The notes beneath the pieces are model-generated. The model was not told where the DNA came from and did not search any database. It worked only from the letters and a program-made list of their open reading frames with translations. Positions 1 to 16,131 of a stretch of 64,000 nt of DNA are shown in pieces. Each line of letters begins with the position of its first letter. Position 1 is the first letter of the stretch. The position numbers were made by a program, and so were the translations under genes. Source of the DNA: Sphingomonadaceae bacterium (GTDB lineage: Bacteria; Pseudomonadota; Alphaproteobacteria; Sphingomonadales; Sphingomonadaceae); NCBI GenBank assembly GCA_020630295.1, contig JAHDBR010000003.1, positions 1-64,000 on the forward strand. Reading direction: 5' to 3'.

Positions 1-66
1 GACGATTTAGGCCACCAGCGTTCTACAGGCAACATAAATCAAAATAACCTATTTGGCACTTTTATG

Positions 67-95
67 TTGACATCGTAACGCTCTTTGGTTAGAGA
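67..95 (+). promoter_or_regulatory. Candidate sigma-70-type promoter upstream of GTA cluster (TTGACA-N17-TAGAGA)
   Basis: TTGACA at 67-72, 17-nt spacer, TAGAGA at 90-95 (weak -10). Confidence 0.35.
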
Positions 96-122
96 AACGG
101 AACATCGCGATAAACCGATTCG

Positions 123-154
123 AAAGGCAGCCCTTCTCCGGACAGGCTGCCTTT
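123..154 (+). terminator. Terminator/attenuator-like hairpin just upstream of GTA terS
   Basis: 10-bp perfect stem AAAGGCAGCC(123-132)/GGCTGCCTTT(145-154); no long U-run after it. Confidence 0.5.
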
Positions 155-181
155 CTGCATTTCGTTAAGGACGATATTTAG

Positions 182-706
182 ATGACTGACACTGGTTGCG
201 GGAAAGATCCTGCAAAGCGCGGAAGGCGGATCAAACTCCGTACCGAGCTTACCGAAGGCGAGCCGGAGGCCGTGGACAAGCACTGGCGCGGTCTGTTTCT
301 CGATATTTTGGCTGAAACCTCGAACGTCAGCGAAGCTGCAAGGCGGACAATCATCAACCCTAGCCGCGCATATAAGAACCGCCGCGAAGATCCGGTCTTC
401 GCCGCACAGTGGCACGCGGCGTTGATGGAAGGATACGAACATCTGGAGATGGAGACACTGCAGCGGCTGCGCGCGGGTACTGCGGCGGACGGACCGAAAT
501 TTGATACGGCAAATGCGTTGCGCCTGCTGGCGATGCATAAAGAAACTGTCGCGAAAGAACGCGCCAAGCACTCCTCCCTTTCAGAAGCGGAGGTGCTGGC
601 GTCCATCAATGCCAAGATTGCCATCATCCGCGCTAGAGAAAACGCCGCCGCAAATGACAAACGCGCAGCCGCAAGCAATACCGCGCAAACTAGCGGCGTG
701 AACTGA
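182..706 (+). CDS. GTA/phage small terminase-like protein (gp1-like)
   Basis: Position directly upstream of large terminase; HTH-like 'TSNVSEAARRTIINPSRAYKNRREDPVFAAQW' typical of TerS. Confidence 0.7.
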   Translation: MTDTGCGKDPAKRGRRIKLRTELTEGEPEAVDKHWRGLFLDILAETSNVSEAARRTIINPSRAYKNRREDPVFAAQWHAALMEGYEHLEMETLQRLRAGTAADGPKFDTANALRLLAMHKETVAKERAKHSSLSEAEVLASINAKIAIIRARENAAANDKRAAASNTAQTSGVN

Positions 707-708
707 CA

Positions 709-2031
709 TTGCCGGACAATATCGCAGGCTGGTTCAGGCAGCTTGATCAAGACACTTTAAAGGCACTGGTGCGCTCACTCGGACCGCATGAACGCAACAA
801 CCTGCGCTACTTCTGGGACTTGTGGGCGCGCAGTGCACAGCTCCCGCCCGCAGGTGCGTGGCGTATCTGGCTGGTCTGCGCCGGCCGCGGTTTCGGCAAG
901 ACCCGCGCGGGGTCGGAATGGGTGCGCGGCATCGCGGCGCATAATCCGGCGGCGCATATCGCCCTGATCGGGGCATCATTGACAGAGGCGAGGTCGATTA
1001 TGGTGGAAGGAGAAAGCGGAGTGCTCGCAGTCTCCCCGCCCGACCATGCCCCCAAATATGAGGCATCCTTGCGCCGCCTGAAATGGCCGAACGGCGCGCA
1101 GGCGACACTCTATTCGGCAGCCGAGCCTGAAAGTTTGCGCGGACCGCAGCATAGTCACGCCTGGTGTGATGAGATCGCCAAATGGGATGCTTCAAAAGCG
1201 CTGTCGGCATGGGACAATCTGATGATGGGTTTACGGCTGGGAAACGATGCCAGAATTATGGCCACCACGACCCCGCGCGCAGTCCCGTTGATGCAAAGGC
1301 TGTTGAAAGAGGAAACCGGCGGCAATGTCAGCGTGACGCGCGGCTCAACCTATGACAACGCGGTCAATCTGCCCGAACATTTCATCACCGATATGCGGCG
1401 CAGCTACGGCGGATCATCGCTTGGCCGGCAGGAACTTGACGGAGAGATGCTGACCGAAATCGAAGGTGCATTGTGGTCCCGCACCATGCTGGAGCAATGC
1501 CGCGTGGATATGCCCGCCGCGCCTGCCATGCGGATCGTGATTGCAATTGATCCGCCGGTTTCCGCAGATGGTGACGAATGCGGTATCATTGTTGCCGCCC
1601 TGTGCGAGGATGGGAGCGGCGTGGTCCTGGCCGATTGCACATTATCGAAGGCAAGCCCCGAACGCTGGGCCCGTGCTGCGGCTGACGCGGCCGAGGCATG
1701 GTCGGCTGATCGTATCGTGGCAGAGGCCAATCAGGGCGGCGCAATGGTGGCGAGCGTATTGCGCGCCGCAAATGTTAATCTGCCGATCAAGCTGGTCCAT
1801 GCCAGCCGCGGTAAAGTCGCCCGCGCAGAACCTATCGCCGCACTCTACGAGGCGGGGCGCATCCATCATGCAGGCCAGTTTCCGGCACTGGAGGACCAGC
1901 TATGCGGCCTGCTTGTCGGCGGTACTTATGAAGGCCCCGGACGGAGTCCCGATCGCGCCGATGCGCTGGTTTGGGCGCTAACCGAACTTATGCTTGGCAA
2001 ACCTGCGCGTCCGCGCATTTCGCCGATCTGA
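709..2031 (+). CDS. GTA/phage large terminase (DNA packaging ATPase, gp2-like)
   Basis: Walker A-like CAGRGFGKTRAGSEW, 'LRGPQHSHAWCDEIAKW', nuclease-domain-like 'IAIDPPVSADGDECGIIVA'; TTG start. Confidence 0.92.
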   Translation: MPDNIAGWFRQLDQDTLKALVRSLGPHERNNLRYFWDLWARSAQLPPAGAWRIWLVCAGRGFGKTRAGSEWVRGIAAHNPAAHIALIGASLTEARSIMVEGESGVLAVSPPDHAPKYEASLRRLKWPNGAQATLYSAAEPESLRGPQHSHAWCDEIAKWDASKALSAWDNLMMGLRLGNDARIMATTTPRAVPLMQRLLKEETGGNVSVTRGSTYDNAVNLPEHFITDMRRSYGGSSLGRQELDGEMLTEIEGALWSRTMLEQCRVDMPAAPAMRIVIAIDPPVSADGDECGIIVAALCEDGSGVVLADCTLSKASPERWARAAADAAEAWSADRIVAEANQGGAMVASVLRAANVNLPIKLVHASRGKVARAEPIAALYEAGRIHHAGQFPALEDQLCGLLVGGTYEGPGRSPDRADALVWALTELMLGKPARPRISPI

Positions 2032-2071
2032 AATATCTGAATTTCCATCCAGAAATCTAAAGGGAAACTCT

Positions 2072-3229
2072 ATGTCGTTCCTTTCTAATATTGCCTCTGC
2101 CTTCAAAGGCGGGGGAGATAGCCGTGTGCCTCTCGCGCGCGGTTTTGTTTCTCCTTGGGCCGCTGCTTTTGATGGCGGCAGTCCGCGCGCGCCGTTTGAT
2201 TACGGCCGCGCAGTGAAATCCAGTTTCGTCCAGAACCCCGTCGCCCAGCGTGCCGTGCGTATTGTGGCAGAGGGTGTCGGCAGCGCACCGCTCTCGCCAT
2301 CAGACGCCGGTTTGACCGAATTGGTTGCAGCTTCCAGCGCTGGTCAGGCGCTGATCGAAACATTGGCGATGCACTTGCTCCTGCACGGCAATGGGTTCGT
2401 GCAAATCATGAAGGATGGTTCCGGCCAGGCGATTGAATTGTTTGCCTTGCGGCCCGAACGGGTTTCCGTTGTACCCGGCGCGGATGGCTGGCCCACTGCC
2501 TATAATTACAAACTCAGCGACCGGACACTGACCATACCGCTGGAAGACGAGGCCGGCTGGTCCAACATCATCCATCTTAAAAGCCTGCATCCGGGCGATG
2601 ATCACTACGGCGCGGGCAGCCTGTCCGCCGCCGAGCAGGCGGTAGCCATCCACAATGCGGCCAGTGACTGGAACAGATCGCTTCTGGACAATGCAGCTCG
2701 CCCGTCCGGCGCACTGGTCTACGGGTCCGAAGATGCGGCAGGTCTGACCGCAGAACAGTTTGACCGGCTCAAGTCGGAGCTCGCTTCCGCCTATTCCGGA
2801 CAGGCCAATGCGGGGCGGCCCATGCTGCTTGAGGGCGGACTGGACTGGAAAGCCATGTCCATGAGCCCGGCCGATATGGATTTCGCCACGCTAAAGGCGG
2901 CGGCTGCCCGCGATATTGCCCTGGCGTTTGGTGTGCCGCCAATGCTGCTCGGCCTACCAGGTGATAATAGCTACGCCAATTACAAAGAGGCGAACCGCGC
3001 CTTGTGGCGCCTCACATTGCTGCCTTTGGCGGGCAAAATATATGGCGGATTACAACAAGGCCTTAGCCCGTGGTTCGGCGAGGCAAAACTGTCCGTCGAT
3101 CTGGATCAGATTTCCGCCCTATCTGAAGACCGCGAACGCCTCTGGTCGCAAATTTCCGGCGCGGCGTTTTTGTCAGACACGGAAAAGCGCGAAATGCTTG
3201 GCTTGAATCCAGCAGGAGAAACGCAATGA
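2072..3229 (+). CDS. Phage/GTA portal protein (HK97 family, gp3-like)
   Basis: Portal-like sequence '...FGVPPMLLGLPGDNSYANYKEANRALWR'; internal ATG at 2072 (MSFLSNIASAF) preferred over ORF start 1994. Confidence 0.92.
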   Translation: MSFLSNIASAFKGGGDSRVPLARGFVSPWAAAFDGGSPRAPFDYGRAVKSSFVQNPVAQRAVRIVAEGVGSAPLSPSDAGLTELVAASSAGQALIETLAMHLLLHGNGFVQIMKDGSGQAIELFALRPERVSVVPGADGWPTAYNYKLSDRTLTIPLEDEAGWSNIIHLKSLHPGDDHYGAGSLSAAEQAVAIHNAASDWNRSLLDNAARPSGALVYGSEDAAGLTAEQFDRLKSELASAYSGQANAGRPMLLEGGLDWKAMSMSPADMDFATLKAAAARDIALAFGVPPMLLGLPGDNSYANYKEANRALWRLTLLPLAGKIYGGLQQGLSPWFGEAKLSVDLDQISALSEDRERLWSQISGAAFLSDTEKREMLGLNPAGETQ

Positions 3230-3534
3230 CACGCCGCACTATGCTCGCGGGCCTGATGTCACAGGCGAATGCAGAAGGAAGCGATCTGGTGACATTGCGC
3301 GCCATCGTTGAAGAAGCCAGCGAAGTGGGTGCGGACCGCGCCTTGCAGCGATTGGGCCTGCATGATGACAGTGCCGAAGATGATATTGATGAGCTTCGCG
3401 AGCTGTTGCAGGCGTGGCGCGATGCCAAGAAGAGCGCATCGAAAGCGGCCATTCAATGGATCGTCAGGGGGCTTCTGGCGCTGCTACTGATCGGCATTGC
3501 TGTGCGCATCGGACTGCCGGAGATGCTCCGTTGA
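3226..3534 (+). CDS. Small GTA-associated protein (gp3.5-like) with C-terminal TM segment
   Basis: Start/stop overlap with portal; located between portal and protease as in GTA clusters. Confidence 0.6.
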   Translation: MTRRTMLAGLMSQANAEGSDLVTLRAIVEEASEVGADRALQRLGLHDDSAEDDIDELRELLQAWRDAKKSASKAAIQWIVRGLLALLLIGIAVRIGLPEMLR

Positions 3535-3920
3535 GGTTCGCCGGATACGCCGCCCTGTTCGGCATTCCCGACGCCGCAAATGACACGATTGTTTCAGGCG
3601 CTTTTGCACGGACTTTGCGCCAGCGCAGGGACCCCATACCGCTATATTGGCAGCACCGCCCCGAACAGCGCATTGGCTGGGTCGAAACGGCCAGCGAGGA
3701 TCACCGCGGATTGCGCGTCGTGGCCCGGATCGACAATCCGGACAGCCGCGCCTGCGCGATGCTGGCCCGGCGCAGCGTGTGCGGCCTCAGCTTCGGATAT
3801 CGGGCGCGAAAGTTTCATCGACGCGATGGCGGGCGATCATTGGAGGATATCGATTTGTTCGAGATCAGTCTGGTCACCACACCGCTGCAACATGGCGCGC
3901 GTGTCCATTTGATCGAATAG
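3531..3920 (+). CDS. HK97 family prohead protease (gp4-like)
   Basis: 'RFAGYAALFGIPDAANDTIVSGAFARTL..PLYWQHRPEQRIGW...LSFGYRARKF...DLFEISLVTTP' typical; TTG start at 3531 overlapping previous stop. Confidence 0.9.
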   Translation: MRFAGYAALFGIPDAANDTIVSGAFARTLRQRRDPIPLYWQHRPEQRIGWVETASEDHRGLRVVARIDNPDSRACAMLARRSVCGLSFGYRARKFHRRDGGRSLEDIDLFEISLVTTPLQHGARVHLIE

Positions 3921-3961
3921 CGCAGGCGCCCGCGTCCGATAACGCCGCAGCCCCTTCATTC

Positions 3962-3986
3962 GCCGCCGTCACAGGCGGCTTTTTTG
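3962..3986 (+). terminator. Intrinsic terminator inside GTA cluster, between protease and capsid genes
   Basis: GCCGCC-GTCACA-GGCGGC (3962-3979) followed by TTTTTTG. Confidence 0.8.
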
Positions 3987-4036
3987 TGCCTTTTTCTAGT
4001 TAAACCACCCCCACCGCCCGAAAGGTAATATTCTCT

Positions 4037-5188
4037 ATGGATACCCCTACCAACAGCACCTCCCAAACTCCTTCCGACCAGCTTGAGGCGAGCTTCGACA
4101 TCGTCGCCCGCCAAGATAAAACCGAAGCCGCTGTCGCGACCCTGCGCACCGATGTTGATGAAGTGAAAGCCCGGATCGACAAAGTCGCGAAGGCGGCAGC
4201 GCGCCCTGCCCTGTCAGGCAACGGTGACAGTGCCGAAGTGAAAGGTTTTGTCGACGGCTATCTGCGCCGCGGCAGCGAGGCTGAAGTCAAATCAATCAGC
4301 GGTCAGACACCGTCCGATGGCGGCTATGCGGTCCCGCGTGAAATTGATGCGATGATTGCGCGTGAACTCACCGAAATCAGCCCGATCCGCGCAATCGCAC
4401 AAGTCGTCCAAACCGGCAGTGCGGGCTATCGCAAGCTCATCTCCACCGGCGGCACGGCAAGTGGTTGGGTCAGCGAAACAGCCGCGCGTCCGGAAACAGA
4501 CACGCCGCAATTTGCGGAAATCGCCCCGCCAACAGGCGAACTATACGCCAACCCTGCGGCCAGTCAGGCCATGCTGGATGATGCAGGCTTCGATCTGGAA
4601 AGCTGGCTCGCCAGCGAGATTGCGATGGAGTTTGCACGGGCAGAAGGTGCAGCCTTTGTCGGCGGGTCCGGTTCCGATCAACCCGAAGGCTTCCTGTCCG
4701 CACCGACCTCTACCGCAGAGGATGGCGTGCGCGCATTCGGGGCTTTGCAATATGTCGGCTCTGGCAATGCCACCGGCTTTGACACAGCACCCGACGCCCG
4801 GCTGATTGATCTGGTGCACACAATGAAGGCCGGCCACCGCCAAGGTGCCAGCTTCGTCATGAATTCGGCCACATTGGCAGAAGTCCGCAAGCTGAAAACC
4901 GCTGATGGCGCATTTTTGTGGCAGCCGGGCATGGTGGAAGGTCAGCCCGACCGCCTGCTTGGCTATCCCGTTGTCGAAGCGGAAGATATGCCGGATATTG
5001 CCAGCGGCACCTTCCCGATCGCATTCGGCAATTTCCGCCATGGCTATCTGATCGCAGAACGGTCAGCCACGCAGATCCTGCGCGATCCGTTCACCAATAA
5101 ACCGTTCGTGCATTTCTACGCGACCAAACGCGTCGGCGGCCAAGTGCTCGACAGCGCGGCGATCAAGCTTCTCAAAATCGAGGAGTAA
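4037..5188 (+). CDS. HK97-type major capsid protein (gp5-like)
   Basis: N-terminal coiled-coil delta domain then 'GGYAVPREIDAMIARELTEISPIRAIAQV...'; 383 aa. Confidence 0.93.
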   Translation: MDTPTNSTSQTPSDQLEASFDIVARQDKTEAAVATLRTDVDEVKARIDKVAKAAARPALSGNGDSAEVKGFVDGYLRRGSEAEVKSISGQTPSDGGYAVPREIDAMIARELTEISPIRAIAQVVQTGSAGYRKLISTGGTASGWVSETAARPETDTPQFAEIAPPTGELYANPAASQAMLDDAGFDLESWLASEIAMEFARAEGAAFVGGSGSDQPEGFLSAPTSTAEDGVRAFGALQYVGSGNATGFDTAPDARLIDLVHTMKAGHRQGASFVMNSATLAEVRKLKTADGAFLWQPGMVEGQPDRLLGYPVVEAEDMPDIASGTFPIAFGNFRHGYLIAERSATQILRDPFTNKPFVHFYATKRVGGQVLDSAAIKLLKIEE

Positions 5189-5193
5189 AGCTC

Positions 5194-5228
5194 CCGGCGG
5201 GGTCGAGTTACCCCTTCTCCCCCGCCGG
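5194..5228 (+). other. Stem-loop downstream of major capsid gene
   Basis: 9-bp perfect inverted repeat CCGGCGGGG(5194-5202)/CCCCGCCGG(5220-5228). Confidence 0.6.
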
Positions 5229-5233
5229 ATTCC

Positions 5234-5282
5234 GCACCCGCGCCGCCACGCGTTCCTCCCTCGCGGGGAGCGGCGCGGGTGC
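5234..5282 (+). terminator. Strong GC hairpin downstream of major capsid gene (terminator-like)
   Basis: 13-bp perfect stem GCACCCGCGCCGC(5234-5246)/GCGGCGCGGGTGC(5270-5282) then ACCCTTTT. Confidence 0.55.
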
Positions 5283-5310
5283 ACCCTTTTGAAACTTTCG
5301 GGAGATCGCC

Positions 5311-5856
5311 ATGAAACGCGCCATCATTACCCCCGCCGAGCTCGGCGGTGCCGCGCTGAGCGAGCTGAAGGAATGGCTCGCCATTTCTACACCGCACGAA
5401 GATAATGTACTTATCGCGATGCTGGGGGCCGCGCTCGATATGTGCGAATCCTTTACCGGCACCATGCCGCTTAGTGCGGTGTGCGAAGAGGTCTGGACCG
5501 CAACGAGCGAGTGGCAGACCCTTGGCGCACGCCCCGTGCAAGCGATTACAGGAATCTCCGGCATTCCTGCCGAAGGTCCGCAGTTCGCGCTGCCGCCAGA
5601 TGCATATGAAGTGGATCTGGATGCAGATGGATCGGGCCGTTTCAGAGTGCTCCGCCAAGGCAGCGCAGGCCGTGTCGCGGTGCACTTTATCGCTGGTTTA
5701 GCGCCAGGGTGGGGATCACTTCCCGACGGGCTTCGTCACGGCATTATCAGGTTCGCCGGCTTTCAATATCGAGACCGCGATACTGCCAATGCTGCCGCGC
5801 CGCCTGCGGCAGTGACTGCCCTTTGGAAACCGTGGCGCCGGATGCAGATCGCATGA
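5311..5856 (+). CDS. Phage/GTA head-tail connector (gp6-like)
   Basis: 'LKEWLAISTPHEDNVLIAMLGAALDMCESFTGTMP' typical of phage connector/phiE125 gp8-type proteins. Confidence 0.85.
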   Translation: MKRAIITPAELGGAALSELKEWLAISTPHEDNVLIAMLGAALDMCESFTGTMPLSAVCEEVWTATSEWQTLGARPVQAITGISGIPAEGPQFALPPDAYEVDLDADGSGRFRVLRQGSAGRVAVHFIAGLAPGWGSLPDGLRHGIIRFAGFQYRDRDTANAAAPPAAVTALWKPWRRMQIA

Positions 5857-6023
5857 TCAATGCGCAGGCAGCGGATAGCACGAACGCATTGGAGGCCCGT
5901 CTGATCCGCAGGGCGGAAGCTCTGGGCAAGGCAGAAGCTGAAAGCCAGCAACGGCAAACCAGCGATGCACCGTCCCGGTGGCGCGATGCCCGGCTGTTGT
6001 GGCCACTTTTTACCAAGGATTAG
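5853..6023 (+). CDS. Small ORF (56 aa) in the gp7 position of the GTA cluster; unknown function
   Basis: ATGA overlap with upstream stop; ends directly before next gene; no recognisable head-closure fold signature. Confidence 0.5.
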   Translation: MINAQAADSTNALEARLIRRAEALGKAEAESQQRQTSDAPSRWRDARLLWPLFTKD

Positions 6024-6026
6024 ATT

Positions 6027-6425
6027 ATGGAAACGCTGCTTCGCACAGCATTGCTCGACTGGCTGCGCAATGCGCCCGATCTCGCTGACAAGCTGAATGC
6101 TATGGAGGAAGAAAGCCCGGTTCGTGCAAGCGCGCCGTGGCTGGGCATCGCCACCAGCGCATCTGCAGATTGGAGCACAAAGGAACGCGCAGGGCGCGAG
6201 GTGCGTATCGCGGTGGAGCTGCAAACGCGCGGTGATGATTCTGCCGCAGATGCCGAATTGGTCTCCATGATTGAGCAGCGCATCCGGGCGCTGCCACGCC
6301 GCCACCCCAAGTTCCATATTATCACCACGCAATTCCTGCGCGCCCGCGCCCAGCGCCGCGCCCGCAACCAACGCTCGATCCTGATGGAATATCGGTTTCG
6401 CGCTCTCGAAACAGTAACGGAGTAA
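6027..6425 (+). CDS. DUF3168-like tail terminator (gp8-like)
   Basis: Length and sequence 'TLLRTALLDWLRNAPDLADKLNAMEEESPVRASAPWLGIATSASADWSTKERAGREVRIAVEL'; GTA gene order. Confidence 0.85.
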   Translation: METLLRTALLDWLRNAPDLADKLNAMEEESPVRASAPWLGIATSASADWSTKERAGREVRIAVELQTRGDDSAADAELVSMIEQRIRALPRRHPKFHIITTQFLRARAQRRARNQRSILMEYRFRALETVTE

Positions 6426-6431
6426 ATCCTT

Positions 6432-6839
6432 ATGACAGCTCAAAAAGGCTCGGCCTTTCTTCTGAAAATCGGCGACGGCGCACAGCCGCCCAGCTATGAG
6501 ACAGTGGCAGGTCTGCGAACCACCCAAATGTCTATCAATGGCGATACGGTCGTGGTCACACACAAGGAATCGGGCGGCTGGCGCGATCTTCTTTCCGGCG
6601 CTGGCACTCGCTCGGTTTCCGTCAGTGCCAGCGGCATTTTTCTGGGAAGCACGGCAGAAAACTTGATCCGATCCCACGCGCTGGCCGGTACTCTGGACGA
6701 ATATGAATTGTCGTTCGAAGACGGTGCCAAATTGCGCGGCCGCTTTCTTGTACAACGCCTGGATTATGCGGGCGATTTCAATGGCGAGCGCAATTACACC
6801 CTCCAATTGGAAAGTTCCGGCGCGGTGCTGCCTGCATGA
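6432..6839 (+). CDS. Phage/GTA major tail tube protein (gp9-like)
   Basis: 'QKGSAFLLKIGDGAQPPSYETVAGLRTTQMSINGDTVVVTHKESGGWRDLL' typical TP901-1-like/GTA tail protein. Confidence 0.9.
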   Translation: MTAQKGSAFLLKIGDGAQPPSYETVAGLRTTQMSINGDTVVVTHKESGGWRDLLSGAGTRSVSVSASGIFLGSTAENLIRSHALAGTLDEYELSFEDGAKLRGRFLVQRLDYAGDFNGERNYTLQLESSGAVLPA

Positions 6840-7150
6840 CCACCGCTCCAAACGCCTGCAGAGGCGAAAGCGGGCTGACAGTAAATGGCCGCCTTTATCT
6901 GTTGCGTCCCACATTCGCCTGTCTGGTTGCAGCAGAAGAGGAAATTGGCCCGCTTTTCGCGCTGGTCGAACGGGCCGGAGACGGTCAACTCAAAATTACC
7001 GAGCTGGCCGCGCTGTTCTGGCATTGCCTCGACAGTCGAGAAGGCCTGGACCGCAATGAGGTCGAAAATGCAGTTCTCGCGATTGGTTTGGCCGGGTGCG
7101 CGAAGCCGCTGCGCGCTTTGCTTGGTCAGATATTGCAGGGCGCTGGATGA
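6836..7150 (+). CDS. GTA family tail assembly protein (gp10-like)
   Basis: 'GESGLTVNGRLYLLRPTFACLVAAEEEIGPLFALVERAGDGQLKITELAALFWHCL'; ATGA overlap. Confidence 0.8.
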   Translation: MTTAPNACRGESGLTVNGRLYLLRPTFACLVAAEEEIGPLFALVERAGDGQLKITELAALFWHCLDSREGLDRNEVENAVLAIGLAGCAKPLRALLGQILQGAG

Positions 7151-7341
7151 AGAACCGGTTTGCCGGTCAGGCTACCAAACTCGCCGGAATTGCTGCGCGC
7201 CATTTGGGCTGGCGACCGGATGATTTCTGGAATGCCACGCCTGCCGATCTGATGCTGGCCCTGTGCCCACCCGATGAAGATGCCGCGATGCTGTCTCGCG
7301 ATGATTTGAACACCATGCTGGAGCGTGACCGAAATGGATGA
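7147..7341 (+). CDS. Phage tail assembly chaperone (rcc01693-family-like)
   Basis: 'GWRPDDFWNATPADLMLALCP' motif; ATGA overlap with upstream stop. Confidence 0.8.
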   Translation: MKNRFAGQATKLAGIAARHLGWRPDDFWNATPADLMLALCPPDEDAAMLSRDDLNTMLERDRNG

Positions 7342-7912
7342 CACAATTGACGAATTGCTGATCGACGTGCGCGCCAGCACGCAAGGCTTTGCCTCTGATA
7401 TCGCGACAATGCGGGGCAGTGTTGATCGCGATCTGCTGGGCGGATTTAGCAAAGCGGGCGATGTTCTTGAACGCGGATTGCTAAGCGCGATCCGGAAGGG
7501 CAGCTTCGGGTTTGAAGATCTGCAGCGGACCGCATCACAGGCGTTGAGCCAGATTGCATCGCAAGCGCTCCAGCTCGGGCTCGACAAGATATTTGGCAGC
7601 TCTGGTGCAGGCTCGGGAGGACTCGGCGATTTATTTGGCGGGCTGATCGGCTCGGTATTCGGATTGCCCGGGCGCGCCACTGGCGGACCGGTTTCGCCAG
7701 GCCGCGGATATTTGGTGGGCGAGCGCGGACCCGAACTGTTTGTCCCGACAAGTGCGGGCCGCGTTGAAACCATGTCGGCGGCTGGCGGCCCGCCGCGCGA
7801 TGTACGCGTAGCCATCCAGCTGAACCAACCGCGCGGAGCGTCGGCTCCCGCCGCTTTGCAACGCTCGTCCCGACAAGTCGCCAGCGCCGTCCGCCGTGCG
7901 CTCATCTCCTGA
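7325..7912 (+). CDS. Short tail tape measure protein (gp11-like)
   Basis: 'FEDLQRTASQALSQIASQALQLGLDKIFG...GRATGGPVSPGRGYLVGERGPELFVPTSAG' typical C-terminal tape-measure motif; 195 aa. Confidence 0.88.
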   Translation: MTEMDDTIDELLIDVRASTQGFASDIATMRGSVDRDLLGGFSKAGDVLERGLLSAIRKGSFGFEDLQRTASQALSQIASQALQLGLDKIFGSSGAGSGGLGDLFGGLIGSVFGLPGRATGGPVSPGRGYLVGERGPELFVPTSAGRVETMSAAGGPPRDVRVAIQLNQPRGASAPAALQRSSRQVASAVRRALIS

Positions 7913-7934
7913 ACCAACGTTAGGATAAAGCATC

Positions 7935-10256
7935 ATGGCATTCTGGCTCGCCCGCAAAAGAAACGGGCAAAATAGCGACTATATACAGCGTTTTGATCCG
8001 CGTTTCTGGACCGTAAATTTTCCGCGCCCGATGATGGCATCAGCTATCACCACGGCAGCAGACGAATTGCTGGTGACATGCGAGTTTTACCATGCGGGAG
8101 AGCTGGCCGGATTGATCTGGGATAGCGAGGACACGCTTGATCACCCGCTTCTTTCCTATGCAACCGACCGTGATTATTCGCACACGATACTTCGGTTTAA
8201 CTGGCGTTCAAACGGGCTCATCCCGCTGGACCAGCCCAATGGTCCGACTCTGACAATCGAAGGACGCGATGCTGCGGGCAATCCCCGCACATGGTATGTA
8301 CGCTTGTGGAACTATGCCGAGGGTTCACCAGAAAATGCCGCGATAACGTTGCCATTTTCGGAACTTGAAAGCGGCTATGGGCTGCCCGGCGAACCGATCT
8401 ATTCCGGTGACATCGACCGGATGTTTATTTCGCTCGTCCCGCCCGGCTATCAAGCAGGCAGCGTAACGCCATTTGCTGCAGTCAAGAACGCCGCCGTGAC
8501 AATTTCAAATGTGCATTGCGAGGGGCACCGCGCAATGTTGGACATTGGCGACATCATGTTGCCGGTTCACGGCGAACAAATGGCCACGGGCTATGATGAT
8601 GCGTATAACCAGACGCCGCAGCGCCTGCTGCGAAACATCCGCGGTTTAGGCTATCGCGGGCGCATTTTGCATTATGTCGGAATGAGCCATTTCTTCGCGC
8701 TGGAAGATAGCGGAGGGCGCAAGGTCGCAAGCGCGAATGGCAAGCTTTCTAAGGCTGCAAACCGCTGGCACCGGTCGTTCTTTGAAGCGTGTAGCGCGCA
8801 AAGATATGATGTCGTTTGCTCGCTCTCATACGAATTGCTGGCGGATCATTGCCCCGATCAATGGCAGCAGCGGGCCTATGACGGCGAAGCGGGGCGAACG
8901 GGCTGGGTCCCGCCCTCTGCGCTGTTATCGCCAGCGAACACCGCCGCGATGGGCTGGCTGCAATCGGTGGCGCAAAATTTTGTGTCATTACTCACCCGCG
9001 CGGGTTTGCCTGTGCTGTTTCAAATTGGCGAGCCATGGTGGTGGGTCACCACTGACGGCAAGCCGTGTCTGTATGACGCAGCCGCAATCGCAGCATTTGG
9101 AGGGGACCCGCCGGTAATTGCGAACATGCGGAGTTTGATGACGCCGGCACAAACAGATTTGCTCGATCAGGCAGGCAGCTTGCTCGCCGCGTCAACCGCA
9201 GATCTTGCACAAGCTGTCAAAGACGCGAGCAACGGCGAAGCTGAAATTCTGTTATTGGCATTTACTCCGACCATCCTTGATCCAGAAATGCCTGAGCTCA
9301 AGCGCGCCAATGTTCCAGTGGGATGGGCTTATCCTGCTTTCGACCGCCTGCAATTGGAGGATTACGATTGGCTGACGGAGGGCAATGATGCCCGCCGCCG
9401 TGCCGCCTATGCAGAATTTGATGCACGGCTCGGCTACCCGATTGAGACCCAGGATTACCTGTCTGGCTTCGTATTGCAGCCTGAAGATGCTGACACATAC
9501 TGGCCGCGCATAGACGCCGGTCTGGATGAAGCTGCGGCCCGCGACGTTAGCCAGCGATATGTCTGGGCGCTCCCGCAAATTACCCGCGATGGCTATACAC
9601 GCCTCGCCTTGAATGAGGAAAACCCCGTGCAAGCATTTGATGATGTTATCTACCCGCTCGCTTTGGGCCGGGATGCTGGGGTCAGCCCCGAATTTTCGAC
9701 CAATGTGGCGGTCACCTCATCGGGTCACGAACGCCGCAATTCATTGTGGTCAGACGCGCGTCTCAGGTTTGACGTGGGCCCTGGTTTGCGGTCCGAAAAC
9801 GAACTTGGAACTCTACTCGGCTTTTTCCGGGCTCGGCGCGGTGCTGCACGGGGATTTCGTTTGGAAGACCCATTTGATTTCAGTTCGAACGGAATGACCG
9901 GCACACCGGCTTCAGGCGATCAAAAACTTGGCCTTGGTGACGGTTTGAAGGCCAGTTTCCAACTGGTCAAAAATTACGGCGCCGGTGACGAACCGCAAAT
10001 CCGGCCAATCACGCGCCCGCGTCAAGATACCATCAGTATAAGTATCGACGGATTGGAAAACTTCGATTGGGAGCTGGGGCAAGGCGGCATTATCACCTTC
10101 CAAACCGCCCCGCCTGATGGCGCTGAAGTGACCGCCGGGTTCCTATTCGACGTACCTGTGCGTTTTGCCGAGGACCGCCTGGATATAACCGGAGCTGCTT
10201 TCACGGCGGGAGAGGCTCCGTCCGTTCCGCTGATCGAAATTCGTGAAGCGACATGA
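7935..10256 (+). CDS. Large fusion: long N-terminal region plus C-terminal DUF2460 distal-tail domain (gp12-like)
   Basis: C-terminal 'DVIYPLALGRDAGVSPEFSTNVAVTSSGHERRNSLWSDARLRFDVGPGLRSENELGTLLGFFRARRGAARGFRLEDPFD' is DUF2460-like; about 560 aa extra N-terminal. Confidence 0.85.
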   Translation: MAFWLARKRNGQNSDYIQRFDPRFWTVNFPRPMMASAITTAADELLVTCEFYHAGELAGLIWDSEDTLDHPLLSYATDRDYSHTILRFNWRSNGLIPLDQPNGPTLTIEGRDAAGNPRTWYVRLWNYAEGSPENAAITLPFSELESGYGLPGEPIYSGDIDRMFISLVPPGYQAGSVTPFAAVKNAAVTISNVHCEGHRAMLDIGDIMLPVHGEQMATGYDDAYNQTPQRLLRNIRGLGYRGRILHYVGMSHFFALEDSGGRKVASANGKLSKAANRWHRSFFEACSAQRYDVVCSLSYELLADHCPDQWQQRAYDGEAGRTGWVPPSALLSPANTAAMGWLQSVAQNFVSLLTRAGLPVLFQIGEPWWWVTTDGKPCLYDAAAIAAFGGDPPVIANMRSLMTPAQTDLLDQAGSLLAASTADLAQAVKDASNGEAEILLLAFTPTILDPEMPELKRANVPVGWAYPAFDRLQLEDYDWLTEGNDARRRAAYAEFDARLGYPIETQDYLSGFVLQPEDADTYWPRIDAGLDEAAARDVSQRYVWALPQITRDGYTRLALNEENPVQAFDDVIYPLALGRDAGVSPEFSTNVAVTSSGHERRNSLWSDARLRFDVGPGLRSENELGTLLGFFRARRGAARGFRLEDPFDFSSNGMTGTPASGDQKLGLGDGLKASFQLVKNYGAGDEPQIRPITRPRQDTISISIDGLENFDWELGQGGIITFQTAPPDGAEVTAGFLFDVPVRFAEDRLDITGAAFTAGEAPSVPLIEIREAT

Positions 10257-11068
10257 GCGTAGTTTTCTTCCGCAACGAGCTGGAAGGTGTTGCCAATTTC
10301 TGGCGTATTTTCCGGCGAGATGGCGCAGCGCTTGCCTTCACCAGTCACGATCGCGATCTGTGGTTTGACGGAATGCTGCACCGCGCCGCGCCAGGTATGG
10401 TGCCAAGCGCAATTCGCCGCACGGCAGACCTGTCTGCGGATAGCGCAGAGGTTGAAGGCGTGCTGTCACACGATGCCATCACTTCGCACGATCTTGCAGC
10501 CGGACGCTATGATGATGCGGCCATTATAATTGGCGCGGTGAACTGGGAAACGCTGGAGAGTGCTGCTCTCTATCACGGATCATTGGGCGGCATTGCCGAG
10601 GATGGTGAAAGCTTCCGGGCTGAATTAAGATCATCCAAGGCCCTGCTTGGCCACGACTACATCCCGCGCACCAGCCCGACTTGCAGAGCCAAATTCTGCG
10701 GTCCGGGATGCACTTTGGCCGCCGTCCGCTTCACTTTAGATGCCACCATTGTATCGTTCAACCTAGAGGAGAACGCTGTCACACTTGATGTTGGCAACCC
10801 GTCTGACTTTATATTTGGAAGACTGCGCTGGTTGAACGGACCGCAGACAGGCATCTCCTCGATCATTCTGGCGAACGGACCCGCAGGTCTCGTGCTCGAC
10901 ACGCCGCTGCCAGACACTGCCGTCATCGGGCAAACTGTCGAACTGCGCGAAGGATGCGACCGCAGACTGGCCACTTGCACCACACGGTTTGCCAATGCCG
11001 TCAATTTCCAAGGCGAACCGTTCTTGCCCGGAAACGATCTGCTGGCGCGGTATCCGGTGACTGCATAA
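10253..11068 (+). CDS. DUF2163 family tail hub protein (gp13-like)
   Basis: 'AFTSHDRDLWFDGMLHRAAPGM', 'YIPRTSPTCRAKFCGPGCTL', 'CDRRLATCTTRFANAVNFQGEPFLPGND'. Confidence 0.93.
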   Translation: MSVVFFRNELEGVANFWRIFRRDGAALAFTSHDRDLWFDGMLHRAAPGMVPSAIRRTADLSADSAEVEGVLSHDAITSHDLAAGRYDDAAIIIGAVNWETLESAALYHGSLGGIAEDGESFRAELRSSKALLGHDYIPRTSPTCRAKFCGPGCTLAAVRFTLDATIVSFNLEENAVTLDVGNPSDFIFGRLRWLNGPQTGISSIILANGPAGLVLDTPLPDTAVIGQTVELREGCDRRLATCTTRFANAVNFQGEPFLPGNDLLARYPVTA

Positions 11069-11478
11069 TGGCGGATGCCGCTGCCTTCGCGCTGGCAGCA
11101 GAACAGCTTGTCGGCACACGGTTCCGTTTGCGCGGAAGGCGGGCAGAAACCGGTATCGATTGCGTCGGACTGGTGCTTCTGGCCCTTAGAAATTCCGGCC
11201 GCACTGCACCGGATGTAACCGGTTACGGTCTGCGCAATCACGACTACTCTTTCCTGCCTGCCATTGCCGACGCCACAGGGTTTGAAACTGTCGATAGTAA
11301 AGTAGCCATTGGTGATGTTCTAGTCGTCACACCGGGGCCAGCGCAGCGGCACTTATTGATCGCATCGGCAAGGCATCACTTCATCCATGCACACGCAGGG
11401 ATTGGCAAAGTCGTGCGGATGCCTGGCCCGATTTCGTGGCCCATCACAAACATCTACCGCCTTAAACAGGGAACCTGA
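11068..11478 (+). CDS. NlpC/P60 family cell-wall peptidase (gp14-like)
   Basis: 'RLRGRRAETGIDCVGLVLLAL' Cys motif and 'HHFIHAHAGIGKV' His motif; ATG at 11068. Confidence 0.9.
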   Translation: MADAAAFALAAEQLVGTRFRLRGRRAETGIDCVGLVLLALRNSGRTAPDVTGYGLRNHDYSFLPAIADATGFETVDSKVAIGDVLVVTPGPAQRHLLIASARHHFIHAHAGIGKVVRMPGPISWPITNIYRLKQGT

Positions 11479-11481
11479 AAC

Positions 11482-13653
11482 ATGGCTACATTGATTCTCA
11501 GCGCTGTCGGCACTGCGATCGGCGGACCGATAGGCGGCGCGATTGGCGCCTTTGCGGGGCAACAAATCGATCAGGCTATCTTTGCAGGCGGCGGAACGCG
11601 AGAAGGGCCGAAGCTTAAAGATCTGTCTATCACAACATCGACGTATGGCGCGCCCATCTCGCAGCATTTCGGAAAGATGCGCGTCGGGGGAACAATCATC
11701 TGGGCGACCGATCTGGTCGAAAATTCTGAAAAGAGCGGCGGCGGCAAAGGTAGCCCGAGTACGCGAAACTATAGCTACACAACATCAATGGCAGTCGCAC
11801 TCGGCAGCCGTCCAATTGCCGGAATTGGCCGCATCTGGGCGGACGGCAATCTATTGCGCGGGGCTTCCGGTGATCTGAAATCGCCAGGGCAAATGCGCTT
11901 TTATTCTGGTTTCGGCGATCAACCGGTCGATCCGTTGCTTGCCGCGGCGATCGGCGCGCAATGTCCGGCCTATCGCGGATGTGCTTATGTGGTCTTTGAA
12001 GATCTCTCACTGGAGGATTTTGGCAACCGGATTCCTGCTCTTACGTTCGAGATATTGGATGATGCTTCATCAATCAGCCTCGCCGACATAGTGACCACAG
12101 CCAATCAGCCCATCACGGCGCAGGTTGCATTGCCTGAATTGAGCGGGGTCAGTTACGAAGGTGGATCGCTTGCCAACGTAATCGGAGCCATTGAGCAGCT
12201 ATATCCGATCTACACCAATTCCGGGGCAGAGACATTGTCGATTGCTTCGGGTCTAGAAACGGACTCGCCGGTAAAGACGCTTCCAACGCAGACTGCCACT
12301 TGGAAGGAACCTGATACCGGCTCGCCCGACGGATTGCTGTCAGAGCGGGATGGCGAGGCCAAGCGCGGCATTTCTGCGCTGAGATATTACGATACTGCCC
12401 GTGACTACCAGCCCGGGATCCAACGGACCGCCGGGCCTTTGGAACGCGGTGCGGAAACTGTGATCGAATTCCCCGGCTCACTAAGTTCTCAGGCCGCAAG
12501 CAGCTTAATTGATCGCGCTTCGCATACAGACAGGTGGGCCAAACAGACTATTCGGTACAGGCTCGCTGAGCTGGACCCTGCGTTAGTCCCTGGCTCTGTG
12601 GTCAACATACCGGACCGGACAGGCAATTGGCTGCTATCATCATGGGAATGGCGCGAAAGCGGGATCGAGCTGGAACTAAAGCGTCTGCCGCCCCGAATGC
12701 AGTCTCAATCTGCAGGCGATGCCGGCGCAATTCCCTTGCCCGCTGATCAGACCGTGCCCCCTACGCATATAAGGGGGTTTGAATTGCCATGGGACGGGTA
12801 TGGCGATCCCGCCCGTTCGAGTGTCTACGCGGCAGTATCAGCGCAAAATGACAGCTGGGCGGGCGCCGCGTTATTTGTCGGCACTGGCACTGCGCTTTCC
12901 GAAGTTGGAACGAGCGGCCGGGTTCAGTCCGTAATGGGAGTGACCGATACCGATCTGCCAGCTTCCCATGCGATTGTAATCGACCGCAGCGCCGCTGTGG
13001 AGGTTTCGCTAATTTCAGAGGATATGACGTTCAGCAACGCCACTCCAAGAGAGCTTGCCAATGGCAGCAACCGGTTGCTGCTGGGAGAAGAGATCGTACA
13101 ATTTTGCAATGCAGAAATGATCGCACCTTCCCGTTGGAAGCTATCCGGATTGTTGCGCGGTAGAGGGGGGACGGAACATATCGCCGCGTCGGGTACGGAA
13201 GCCGGGGCGCAGGTCACCCTGCTCGACGGAAATCTGATAGCATTGAAGCCGGAGGATGTTGCTAACCATACCGATATTTATGCAATAGGCCGCGGTGATT
13301 CAGATCCGGCCGCCTCGAAAATTGAAGCGCAAGGCAGAAGCAGCCAGCCACTTTCTCCGGTCCATCCCCGCAACACAATTTTGAGTAATGGCGATTTTCG
13401 ATTCTGCTGGACCAGGCGCGCCCGGGGGGCATGGGGCTGGCCGGACACGACTGACATACCGCTTAATGAAGAACGCGAACGCTACCGTGTTGGCGTGGGT
13501 GACGATGATGCAGAGGCCAGCTGGGAAGTAGAAATTCCGGAAATCCAGCTCACAGCCGCGCAACTCGCTGCGCACACTGGCAAACGAATCTGGGTCGTCC
13601 AGCTAGGCCGATTCGCGCAATCTGCGCGACTTGATTTGGGCATAGTCACGTAA
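11482..13653 (+). CDS. GTA/phage tail baseplate (megatron-like, gp15-like, short form)
   Basis: Gly-rich N-term, 'ISQHFGKMRVGGTIIWATDLVE' and 'GRIWADGNLLRGASGDLKSPGQMRFYSGFGDQPVDPLLAAAIG..CPAYRGCAYVVFEDLSLEDFGNRIPALTFEI' phage-tail_3-like. Confidence 0.9.
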   Translation: MATLILSAVGTAIGGPIGGAIGAFAGQQIDQAIFAGGGTREGPKLKDLSITTSTYGAPISQHFGKMRVGGTIIWATDLVENSEKSGGGKGSPSTRNYSYTTSMAVALGSRPIAGIGRIWADGNLLRGASGDLKSPGQMRFYSGFGDQPVDPLLAAAIGAQCPAYRGCAYVVFEDLSLEDFGNRIPALTFEILDDASSISLADIVTTANQPITAQVALPELSGVSYEGGSLANVIGAIEQLYPIYTNSGAETLSIASGLETDSPVKTLPTQTATWKEPDTGSPDGLLSERDGEAKRGISALRYYDTARDYQPGIQRTAGPLERGAETVIEFPGSLSSQAASSLIDRASHTDRWAKQTIRYRLAELDPALVPGSVVNIPDRTGNWLLSSWEWRESGIELELKRLPPRMQSQSAGDAGAIPLPADQTVPPTHIRGFELPWDGYGDPARSSVYAAVSAQNDSWAGAALFVGTGTALSEVGTSGRVQSVMGVTDTDLPASHAIVIDRSAAVEVSLISEDMTFSNATPRELANGSNRLLLGEEIVQFCNAEMIAPSRWKLSGLLRGRGGTEHIAASGTEAGAQVTLLDGNLIALKPEDVANHTDIYAIGRGDSDPAASKIEAQGRSSQPLSPVHPRNTILSNGDFRFCWTRRARGAWGWPDTTDIPLNEERERYRVGVGDDDAEASWEVEIPEIQLTAAQLAAHTGKRIWVVQLGRFAQSARLDLGIVT

Positions 13654-13687
13654 ACTGGCGGAGATTTTCGGGCTTACCCCAACTAAA

Positions 13688-14158
13688 TTGGAGAGAATTA
13701 TGACAACCCCCTTACCGTTCAGCGGTTCTTCGACACGCTTCAGCTTACCTTTCTTATTCGCCGGCCAGTCCCAGAAGGAGTTTTTCTTCAACGAATCAGT
13801 CGCCCGGATCGACATAATGGTCCAGGCGACTGTACTCGGAGAGACCGAGCAGGAACCCCAGAATCCGGCAGATGGAGACGCTTGGTTGATCGGAGAGAAT
13901 CCGATCGGCGACTGGTCGGAAAAAGCTGGACATATAGCGGGACGACAAGCGGGAGTGTGGCATTACTTCGAACCGCAAGAAGGGATGCAGATTTACGACA
14001 AAACAGCCCGACAAATCGTGTCGTTTAGAAATGGCTGGATCCGAATATTTGCGCCAGACATCCCTTCTAGCGGTGCCGTGCAGGATACCGAATTACGAAC
14101 CGCTTTTGCCCAATTGTTAGAAAGCCTTGCAGAGACAGGTATTTTTCCCGTAACATAA
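13688..14158 (+). CDS. DUF2793-like GTA/phage tail-associated protein
   Basis: 'LPFLFAGQSQKEFFFNESVARIDIMVQATVLGETEQEPQNPADGDAWLIGENPIGDWSEKAGHIAGRQAGVWHYFEPQEGMQIYD'. Confidence 0.85.
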   Translation: MERIMTTPLPFSGSSTRFSLPFLFAGQSQKEFFFNESVARIDIMVQATVLGETEQEPQNPADGDAWLIGENPIGDWSEKAGHIAGRQAGVWHYFEPQEGMQIYDKTARQIVSFRNGWIRIFAPDIPSSGAVQDTELRTAFAQLLESLAETGIFPVT

Positions 14159-14347
14159 TTGGAACAGTTTGACTGCAATGACGTTGAGGGCTCGATAAGG
14201 TAAGAATTATCAAGTTTTACGCGGCGGCAGCGCAAAGAGAGGCTTTCTTGCAACAGTTGCCTTGATTGATCGCTTGCCTCTCAGAGTAGGAAAAGTTAGA
14301 AAACCGCCACTTGGTGGCACAATTCTGCTAAAAAGGGGAAATATATA

Positions 14348-15475
14348 ATGCGGAAACTCGTCATAGGAATGGCGATGGCCTCTACGGCCCTTGCATCGCC
14401 TACCCTCGCCCGCGACGGCCAATGGTACGTCGAGGTCGGTGGTGGACCGATGATCGTTGAAGATCTGGATATTGATCTGGACAATGGAACTGACACTATC
14501 GGTGTTGATAACGACACTGGTTATGACTTCGGCGGTATCGTCGGTTATGACTTCGGTGCTTTCCGTCTGGAAACAGAAGTCAGCTACCGTGAAGCTGATA
14601 TCACAAACCTTTCGGTCGGTAATGCAGGTCTTCCTGGCATTGTTGCTCCGAACACAACTGGCGCTGGCTCTTTCCCAGCGCGAGGCGACATCAACGAACT
14701 CAGCTTCATGCTGAACGGTTTGTTCGATTTCGGTCCCGATGATGGCCTGCAAGGCTTCCTCGGCGGCGGTGTTGGTGTTGCGCGTACAGATTTGCACGCA
14801 AACGCTAACCCACGCACAACTGGTGCGTTCGATGATTCGGACAGCGGTTTCGCTTGGCAACTGCTTGCGGGCGTTCGCGCTCCATTGAGCGATAGCTGGG
14901 ATGTTGGTCTCCGGTACCGTATGTTTACTGCTGAAAACGTAAACATTGTGGATCGCTTTGGTCGTGAGCTTAGTTCAACTCCGCGTACGCACTCGCTGCT
15001 CGGTACGTTGACTTACAACTTCGGTGGTGAGGCTCCGCCTCCACCGCCACCACCGCCACCGCCACCGCCACCACCTCCACCACCGCCGCCACCTCCACCG
15101 CCGCCACCGGCACCGGAAGTAGTGTGTAACAAAGGACCGTACATCGTGTTCTTCGAGTGGGATCAGTCGGATATCACTCCTGAGGCTGCAACAATCCTGA
15201 ACAACGCTGCATCGCAATATGCGAACTGCGGTAGTGCTTCGGTAATGCTTGCTGGTCACGCTGATGCGTCTGGCGCCAAAACTTACAACGTCGGTCTTTC
15301 CGAACGTCGTAACGCTTCGGTGACAAACTATCTTGCGGGTCGTGGTGTCCCGACCGGTCGCATCACTAGTGAAGCGTTTGGTGAGACAGCACTTCGCGTA
15401 CCGACAGCTGACGGTGTTCGCGAACTGCAAAACCGTCGTGTTGAAGTTACTTATGGTCCGGGTTCGGGCATGTAA
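14348..15475 (+). CDS. OmpA family outer membrane protein with beta-barrel, poly-proline linker and peptidoglycan-binding domain
   Basis: Signal peptide; 25 consecutive Pro codons (15035-15109); C-terminal 'NVGLSERRNASVTNYLAGRGVPTGRITSEAFGE' OmpA motif. Confidence 0.95.
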   Translation: MRKLVIGMAMASTALASPTLARDGQWYVEVGGGPMIVEDLDIDLDNGTDTIGVDNDTGYDFGGIVGYDFGAFRLETEVSYREADITNLSVGNAGLPGIVAPNTTGAGSFPARGDINELSFMLNGLFDFGPDDGLQGFLGGGVGVARTDLHANANPRTTGAFDDSDSGFAWQLLAGVRAPLSDSWDVGLRYRMFTAENVNIVDRFGRELSSTPRTHSLLGTLTYNFGGEAPPPPPPPPPPPPPPPPPPPPPPPPPAPEVVCNKGPYIVFFEWDQSDITPEAATILNNAASQYANCGSASVMLAGHADASGAKTYNVGLSERRNASVTNYLAGRGVPTGRITSEAFGETALRVPTADGVRELQNRRVEVTYGPGSGM

Positions 15476-15500
15476 TTTCGCTAAGGCGATAAAAATCTTG

Positions 15501-15532
15501 AAAGGGGCTGGAGCGATCCGGCCCCTTTTTTG
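15501..15532 (+). terminator. Intrinsic terminator of ompA-like gene
   Basis: AAAGGGGC...GCCCCTTTTTTT hairpin. Confidence 0.85.
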
Positions 15533-15567
15533 TTATATCTTCAACGAGACACTGTTGGAGAAAAGTA

Positions 15568-16131
15568 ATGTCCGATTTGAGAAACCCATTGGCGTCCGCC
15601 CTCGCCCTTGCTTTGGTAGCTTGTGGCAATCCGGCTTCTGATACCGATGCACGCGCCGAATCACAGGAGCTAACGACCGCGCCTTCCTTAGCGGTTGCAT
15701 CCCTTACCTTGGCTAACGGTGCACCAGCAGGTGAAGTTCACCTCCTTCAAACCGGTGAAACCCTCTCACTAAAAGGTTCGATCTCAAACATTCCGCCCGG
15801 ACCACATGGGTTTCATTTGCACATGGTCGGTGACTGTACAGCGCCTGACTTCAAGTCAGCCGAAGGTCATTTGAACCCTTACAATGCGACACATGGCAAG
15901 GTATCCGAAGGCGGTAAGCATCTTGGCGACCTGGATAATTTACTCGTGGATGAAACTGGCCTAGCGCGCATCGATGTTACAATCGCGGGTACCGCAATGG
16001 AAAGCTTGCCTCACATCATGGACGCTGACGGAACCTCAGTGATGATCCACGCTGACGCGGACGACTACAAGTCCGATCCTGCAGGGGCAGCAGGTCCGAG
16101 AATCGCGTGCGGAGTACTCAACCCAGTCTGA
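15568..16131 (+). CDS. sodC: Cu/Zn superoxide dismutase-like lipoprotein
   Basis: 'GPHGFHLHMVGDCTAPDFKSAEGHLNPYNATHG', 'GKHLGDLDNL', lipobox-like LVACG. Confidence 0.9.
   Translation: MSDLRNPLASALALALVACGNPASDTDARAESQELTTAPSLAVASLTLANGAPAGEVHLLQTGETLSLKGSISNIPPGPHGFHLHMVGDCTAPDFKSAEGHLNPYNATHGKVSEGGKHLGDLDNLLVDETGLARIDVTIAGTAMESLPHIMDADGTSVMIHADADDYKSDPAGAAGPRIACGVLNPV

Follow-up and report, generated by a model that had tools for sequence, protein, structure and literature searches.

What is encoded by the run of phage-like head and tail genes at positions 182-14158 of a 64,000-nucleotide stretch of Pontixanthobacter DNA (order Sphingomonadales): a gene transfer agent (GTA) or a decaying prophage, and how is it built and controlled? 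We analysed this whole stretch, hereafter the window, which comprises bases 1-64000 of contig C18 in a genome of 2.44 Mb (88 contigs, 99.85% complete). The original prediction for this DNA had described a cluster of GTA type rather than prophage type, and our data supported that call. The genes are collinear homologues of those of the Rhodobacter capsulatus GTA (RcGTA), no integrase, replication or lysis module accompanies them, conservation extends throughout the family with constant downstream neighbours, and the cluster is vertically inherited with intact genes. We consider it likely that the cluster encodes an RcGTA-like GTA of the Sphingomonadales type, inherited vertically and probably functional, which would deliver DNA and be controlled in the ways proposed below.

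The identical gene order recurred in relatives throughout the family, far beyond chance. All 12 core genes were full-length open reading frames (ORFs) in 49 of the 58 named relatives whose flanks were complete, and these 58 carried the DUF2793 gene (58/58), an outer membrane protein (OMP) neighbour (46/58) and a SodC neighbour (37/58); the set was chosen by g12 match and is biased towards intact clusters. Median ratios of nonsynonymous to synonymous substitution rates (dN/dS; Nei-Gojobori, close pairs), a check put forward with the original prediction, were 0.11-0.33 across the head-tail genes. The cluster is under purifying selection, and the proposal that its intact ORFs are maintained by selection was borne out. 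Decay was also seen. In two Pontixanthobacter genomes, G003 (locus L037) and G004 (locus L038), the GTA was largely deleted and the promoter motif described below was gone, with g15 or the 3' part, DUF2793, OMP and SodC kept; some relatives hold disrupted copies of the cluster. Inactivation in most relatives had been named as grounds for rejecting a GTA: among genus mates decay was found in these two, and most relatives are intact.

Hidden Markov model (HMM) searches and ORF reading identified eighteen genes at 182-14158, all in one direction and all open, with a coding density of 98.7%. They run in the order TerS, TerL, portal, DUF6127, prohead protease, HK97 capsid, adaptor, short g7, terminator, tail tube, gp10, tail assembly chaperone (TAC), 195-aa tape measure, g12, hub, NlpC peptidase, megatron and DUF2793. 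The predicted contiguous, co-directional RcGTA-like head-tail genes were confirmed by HMM matches and open frames as follows, and the predicted ATGA-type start/stop overlaps occur at five junctions (g3/g3.5, g6/g7, g9/g10, g10/g10.1 and g12/g13).

182-706, forward strand: g1, small terminase (TerS); phrog_4044 TerS, E 1e-8, and position
709-2031, forward strand: g2, large terminase (TerL); PF03237 and PF17289, and tree
1994-3229, forward strand: g3, portal, whose true start may be further in; PF04860, E 7e-73
3226-3534, forward strand: g3.5, DUF6127 protein; PF19622, E 5e-30
3456-3920, forward strand: g4, prohead protease; TIGR01543 / PF04586
4037-5188, forward strand: g5, HK97-fold major capsid protein; PF05065, E 1e-90, and TIGR01554
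5311-5856, forward strand: g6, head-tail adaptor; phrog_442, E 1e-15
5853-6023, forward strand: g7 locus, short head-completion protein (~56 aa); frame and ATGA overlap with g6, matching the short g7 of PMC9765227 by position and length only
6027-6425, forward strand: g8, tail terminator; PF11367, E 3e-7
6432-6839, forward strand: g9, tail tube (major tail) protein; PF06199, E 1e-42
6836-7150, forward strand: g10, GTA-gp10 tail protein; PF11836, E 2e-18
7147-7341, forward strand: g10.1, TAC; PF09550, E 2e-13, end from the ORF list
7325-7912, forward strand: g11, short tape measure protein (195 aa); phrog_30701 and phrog_8892 tape measure
7935-10256, forward strand: g12, hybrid distal tail protein (773 aa); Pfam, PDB profile matches, AF2 and Foldseek
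10253-11068, forward strand: g13, baseplate hub; TIGR02218, E 5e-52, PF09931 and PF09356
11068-11478, forward strand: g14, NlpC/P60-type tail peptidase; PF00877, E 2e-5, and phrog_329
11482-13653, forward strand: g15, short megatron (723 aa) without the peripheral TIM region; profile versus Rcc01698, AF2/Foldseek
13688-14158, forward strand: DUF2793 protein, probable tail-fibre-related accessory; PF10983, E 4e-22, and phage fibre PHROGs; kept in 58/58 relatives

Two candidate assignments were dropped. Terminase_3 had no match in the genome, the TerL being of the Terminase_6N/6C family, and a long g7 starting at 5709 gave way to the short ATG start that overlaps g6; in Sphingomonadales GTAs the head-completion gene g7 is replaced by a short gene (PMC9765227).

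The GC content of the cluster (58.5%, versus 57.2% elsewhere in the window) lies inside the range of other equal-length stretches. On its 3' side follow genes for an OmpA-like OMP and SodC, then MFS, queC, hsp33 and argF-type genes. The claim that core genes flank the cluster thus held downstream; the upstream side is out of view, since the contig begins at window base 1, 181 bp before g1, so an upstream integrase could not have shown in the window. A genus mate carries ordinary genes there (FA-hydroxylase, Crp-like and DedA/VTT-type). No integrase, replication or lysis gene was found in 182-16131 or in ten further flanking genes, the upstream view being 181 bp, and these visible flanks do not hold the integrase, repressor, replication and lysis genes of an intact temperate prophage. 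Both tyrosine integrases of the whole genome lie off the cluster, on contigs C68 and C22, which agrees with the absence of an integrase claimed for the cluster.

The 181 bp that precede g1 contain two features of interest for the control of the cluster:

45-121, forward strand: predicted GTA promoter and leader; ungapped spacing identical in 51 distinct loci
122-155, forward strand: intrinsic-terminator-like hairpin, stem GAAAGGCAGCC/GGCTGCCTTTC of 11 bp; stem-loop and T run between leader and g1

The first block, which we infer to be a promoter, comprises a TAACC..TTTGG element (45-56), a -35 hexamer TTGACA (67-72), a conserved 17-nt spacer (73-89), a -10-like TAGAGA (90-95), a conserved leader segment GAACATCGCGATA (100-112) and a GANTC site, here GATTC (117-121). 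In 51 loci, the region 5' of g1 shares TTGACATcGTnACGCTcTTTGGtTAga...AACATCGCGATA..cGAnTC, preceded by an AACC..TTTGG element, with many columns at 2 bits and the -35/-10 spacer conserved about as strongly as the -35 hexamer; the loci were collected by a core-motif pattern, so that conservation of the core partly reflects selection of the loci, a bias that does not extend to the flanking elements, to GANTC or to the hairpin. GANTC was present in 43/51 loci (N = T, G or A), against a shuffled expectation of 0.076 per locus. A GC-rich hairpin with a T run followed in 32/51 loci versus 53/510 mononucleotide shuffles, its sequence varying by species and its place being kept. The core motif occurred exactly once in each of five genus genomes with a full cluster, and it was not found in two genus genomes with decayed clusters, nor in one 77%-complete genome. 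No CtrA box (TTAA-N7-TTAA) was seen by eye in window 1-181, for which no computed scan was made.

Two further observations concern this region. The spacer contains TTTGGTTAG at window 84-92, and TAACC..TTTGG (45-56) precedes the -35. In some relatives the upstream TAACC element forms a palindrome, TAACC-N5-GGTTA, that looks like a putative operator.

As checks on its reading, the original prediction had proposed a search for a GafA-like activator and CtrA; a DUF6456 gene and a CtrA gene, the latter over its cut-off, are both in the genome, and gafA is annotated as DUF6456 (PMC9765227). The DUF6456 gene lies on contig C88, divergent from a helix-turn-helix (HTH) repressor-like gene. We call the latter RogA-like by its HTH class, its size and its divergent position beside DUF6456, and no direct comparison with RogA was made. 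This RogA-like HTH/DUF6456 (GafZ) pair is found in L077 (G000:C88:14000-26000) at 4276-4848 and 4908-5417, and also in L197-L200. It adjoins secF in genus mates and, in Pontixanthobacter, shows no linkage to the GTA; in G039, G014 and G058 it stands directly 5' of the terminase, and in G012 one gene lies between. DUF6456 was also considered as a strict marker of GTAs and rejected, the correlation being loose. In Caulobacter, RogA is an HTH/S24-like repressor of gafYZ (PMC9632790), and GafZ, which binds between the -35 and -10, allows polymerase to read beyond a terminator (PMC11150451). Taken together, the conserved spacer, the leader hairpin and the RogA-like/DUF6456 pair suggest GafZ-type anti-termination at the leader hairpin, and the conserved GANTC suggests a CcrM/GcrA input from replication or methylation.

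The hairpin may instead be the terminator of an upstream gene, with the conserved block an ordinary promoter and no anti-termination. The upstream gene of the window lies off the contig, and GafZ anti-termination has been shown in Caulobacter only, both of which leave room for this alternative. However, the conserved promoter is 5' of the hairpin, which places the hairpin inside the transcribed leader, and in locus L039 the upstream gene reads away from g1 and the hairpin is still present. We regard an ordinary terminator as possible and somewhat doubtful, and retain GafZ-type anti-termination as the reading that these elements suggest.

The classical RcGTA-like content expected for the cluster was found in its gene order, which is collinear, but not in the domain content of g12 and g15. 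Pfam searches divided g12 into an NCTSP_N domain at residues 17-205 (PF23844, E 2e-91), a TIM barrel resembling gp64 of phage N4 at 210-554 (TIM-barrel_NCTSP, PF23845, E 4e-168) and a DUF2460 distal tail domain at 569-770. A profile built from 20 orthologues matched N4 gp64 over the barrel (9lc0_M, E 3e-76), N4 gp65 over residues 8-90 (9lc0_I, E 4e-27) and RcGTA Rcc01695 at the C-terminus (6tba_6B, E 1e-73). RcGTA g12 is a distal tail protein of ~210 aa (6tba_6B), and N4 gp64/gp65 form a non-contractile, receptor-binding tail sheath (PMC12633501, PMC12892993). With the AF2 model of g12 (pLDDT 85), Foldseek returned N4 tail chains as the best matches, followed by the R4C distal tail protein and then TIM-barrel glycoside hydrolases (for example GH31 enzymes and PgaB); the barrel was 30% identical to N4 gp64. 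The RcGTA megatron was absent among the top 50 matches listed, which is evidence neither way, as 6tba_8A resolves 439 residues. GEPWWW, just past a barrel strand, and EDY were invariant in every g12 orthologue aligned, and both motifs also occur in N4 gp64 and, in the cases picked up by a plain pattern scan, in phage and prophage copies that stand free; this suggests a putative active or binding site. Among 50,697 phage records, one, MT840053 (L168), covered 80% of the fused g12. That record is a 5.4-kb human-gut 'Bacteriophage sp.' contig with a fused g12 and a piece of g15, that is, a Sphingomonadales-type GTA fragment.

The megatron gene g15 is altered in a different way. The RcGTA megatron (1304 aa) consists of iris, adhesin-like, peripheral, central and fibre-binding domains (PMC7296036). 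In a profile alignment (E 5e-116), g15 residues 1-196 matched Rcc01698 residues 1-207, and g15 200-711 matched 767-1289; since g15 aligns to nothing between Rcc01698 207 and 767, the stretch with the peripheral domain (230-744) is missing. The AF2 model of g15 matched 8gtc_M and 6tba_8A in Foldseek. As to the distribution of the two barrels, GTA_TIM (PF13547) occurred in 31/291 genomes drawn from the class and in 0/151 genomes of the order, and TIM-barrel_NCTSP (PF23845) in 79/151 genomes of the order and in 5/291 of the class draw, four of these being in the window's family, the window included. By its predicted domains, the tail tip is re-architected: RcGTA's barrel is absent and a different barrel stands elsewhere in the tip. 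Homology of the g12 barrel to GTA_TIM or the megatron insert was not detected (hhalign probability about 1%), and we therefore report a replacement and leave its direction unspecified.

With regard to that direction, the short TIM-less megatron could be ancestral in GTAs, the other alphaproteobacterial orders having gained GTA_TIM later. Short forms in NCTSP-bearing prophages and in phage S20 favour this history, and the g15 tree, in which a starred branch (96/95) sets Sphingomonadales GTAs apart from all others, fits either direction; but that tree is unrooted and gives no polarity, and GTA_TIM megatrons are also found in prophages and Rhodobacter phages (PMC8601537). We give this history limited credence. 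It is improbable that an ancestral megatron passed its peripheral TIM domain to g12 inside the cluster. The complementary loss in g15 and gain in g12 across the order would fit such a relocation. Against it stand the hhalign result, the 30% identity of the g12 barrel to N4 gp64, and the structure comparison, which points to N4 gp64 as nearer, the TIM region of RcGTA being unresolved in 6tba_8A. In addition, three prophages of the class (L066-L068) carry a free DUF2460 gene and then an N4-like module in one frame with the hub, beside short megatrons; this arrangement lies at 10242-13884 in L066, 8215-11720 in L067 and 2189-5601 in L068, and the single frames are 919-1078 codons long. With such a module already beside the hub, acquisition from a phage is simpler than relocation. 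The three prophages were considered as the source of the tail module and set aside: the g15 tree groups their genes with those of other orders, and no direct donor is claimed.

For the preferred reading, a functional GTA with a replaced tip, we propose the following course. Particles would package host DNA by the headful. Six g12 subunits would join the tail tube to the baseplate and project the N4-like TIM modules, which may bind or cut surface polysaccharide; the megatron iris and the NlpC peptidase would then, as in RcGTA, provide a way through to the periplasm. For control, the RogA-like repressor would shut off production of the DUF6456 (GafZ) protein. When GafZ is produced, it would load at the conserved sequence between the -35 and -10 and carry RNA polymerase past the leader terminator, giving transcription of the entire operon. 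More tentatively, these elements may define an order-wide GTA lineage that combines a hybrid tip, in which an N4 sheath module on the distal tail protein assumes the surface-polysaccharide role of the missing megatron domain, with a Q-like anti-termination circuit gated by a CcrM site.

Several points weigh against this reading. Particle production and DNA transfer are predicted from the genes alone. The hairpin was not found in 19/51 loci, and the -10 of the predicted promoter is weak. A search with Bac_DnaA_C for a GafY-like gene returned DnaA only, and Caulobacter needs GafY and GafZ together; DUF6456 is also present in relatives that have no intact g12, and some g12 bearers (G049, G059) lack it. 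The g15 protein is not a multidomain megatron with a GTA_TIM peripheral domain; GTA_TIM is absent from all sampled genomes of the order and is not used as a criterion in the surveys of Sphingomonadales GTAs consulted, and we take this as an order-level variant and no exclusion from the GTAs. Finally, the phylogeny called for by the original prediction was clear near the tips, with the window TerL in a family clade at 100/100 support and a family capsid clade likewise at 100/100. At depth, GTA TerL formed one side of the best tree with 81/18 support only, and two enterobacterial phage rows lay inside the Sphingomonadales group of the capsid tree, so that a deep separation of GTA and phage is not proven. 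Two phage-database records, MW091529 (L158/L173) and MW462191 (L159), are the nearest 'phage' records by sequence and fall among GTAs in the TerL and capsid trees; both are bacterial GTA clusters misfiled, with efflux, fimbriae and penicillin-binding protein genes in their flanks.

That the cluster is a defective prophage or tailocin-like remnant, a decaying phage structural module and not a GTA, is very improbable: the losses in the two genus mates (G003, G004), the disrupted copies in some relatives and the unsupported split of phage and GTA TerL would fit it, but every core gene is open in most relatives, dN/dS lies far below 1, downstream neighbours are constant across the family (OMP in 46/58, SodC in 37/58), the promoter reaches 2 bits per column at many positions, purifying selection and conservation across genera are already observed, and the presence of capsid and terminase speaks against a tailocin.

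A functional GTA of this type bears on several questions. Plausible devices dedicated to gene exchange are few, and GTAs belong to them; mechanistic work on them has been done mostly in Rhodobacterales and Caulobacter. A single stereotyped promoter across an order with a different tail tip offers a direct route to finding producers; the hybrid tip makes it possible to ask whether a module held in common with lytic phages determines host range and entry; and a promoter with GANTC and a leader terminator bears on the coupling of GTA expression to the cell cycle. The original prediction had called the system poorly characterised in this lineage. RcGTA-like clusters in Sphingomonadales have in fact been surveyed repeatedly (PMC6821227, PMC7360931, PMC9765227, PMC9836097), and the description stands in so far as we found no experimental work on a Sphingomonadales GTA in the literature searched. 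The GTA itself is not new; provisionally, the order-specific tail tip and the promoter and leader are the new points, no description of the g12/g15 domain exchange or of the promoter and leader having been found in open-access papers (most subscription journals lay outside the search).

Compared with known systems, the cluster shares with RcGTA its gene order, the HK97 head genes, tail tube, short tape measure, hub and NlpC peptidase, and the N- and C-terminal parts of the megatron. RcGTA lacks the 560-residue N4-sheath-like N-terminus of the window's g12, and its megatron residues ~208-766, including the peripheral domain, have no counterpart in the window's g15; the window's g7 is short. Rhodogtaviriformidae are restricted to Rhodobacterales hosts (PMC9662315), and the host here is a Pontixanthobacter of the Sphingomonadales, outside that family's range. 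The N4 sheath (gp64/gp65; PDB 9lc0, 9yf4, 9yf5) matches g12 in the barrel, the N-terminal domain and the GEPWWW/EDYDW motifs. In N4, however, it is a free-standing sheath of two subunits round a podovirus tail, whereas g12 is not a separate sheath protein but a single chain fused to a siphovirus-type distal tail protein (DUF2460). The Caulobacter GTA (CcGTA; RogA/GafY/GafZ; PMC9632790, PMC11150451) resembles the window genome in its divergent RogA-like HTH/DUF6456 pair, conserved -35/-10 spacer and early terminator. It differs in that no GafY-like gene was found in the window genome, the -35/-10 sequences are not the same, the terminator of the window stands before g1 and not after it, and some other genomes of Sphingomonadales have the regulator pair linked in cis to the cluster. 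The RcGTA-like GTAs described in Sphingomonadales (PMC6821227, PMC9765227, PMC7360931) are the same kind of cluster with the same short g7, and it is here that the window and its relatives belong.

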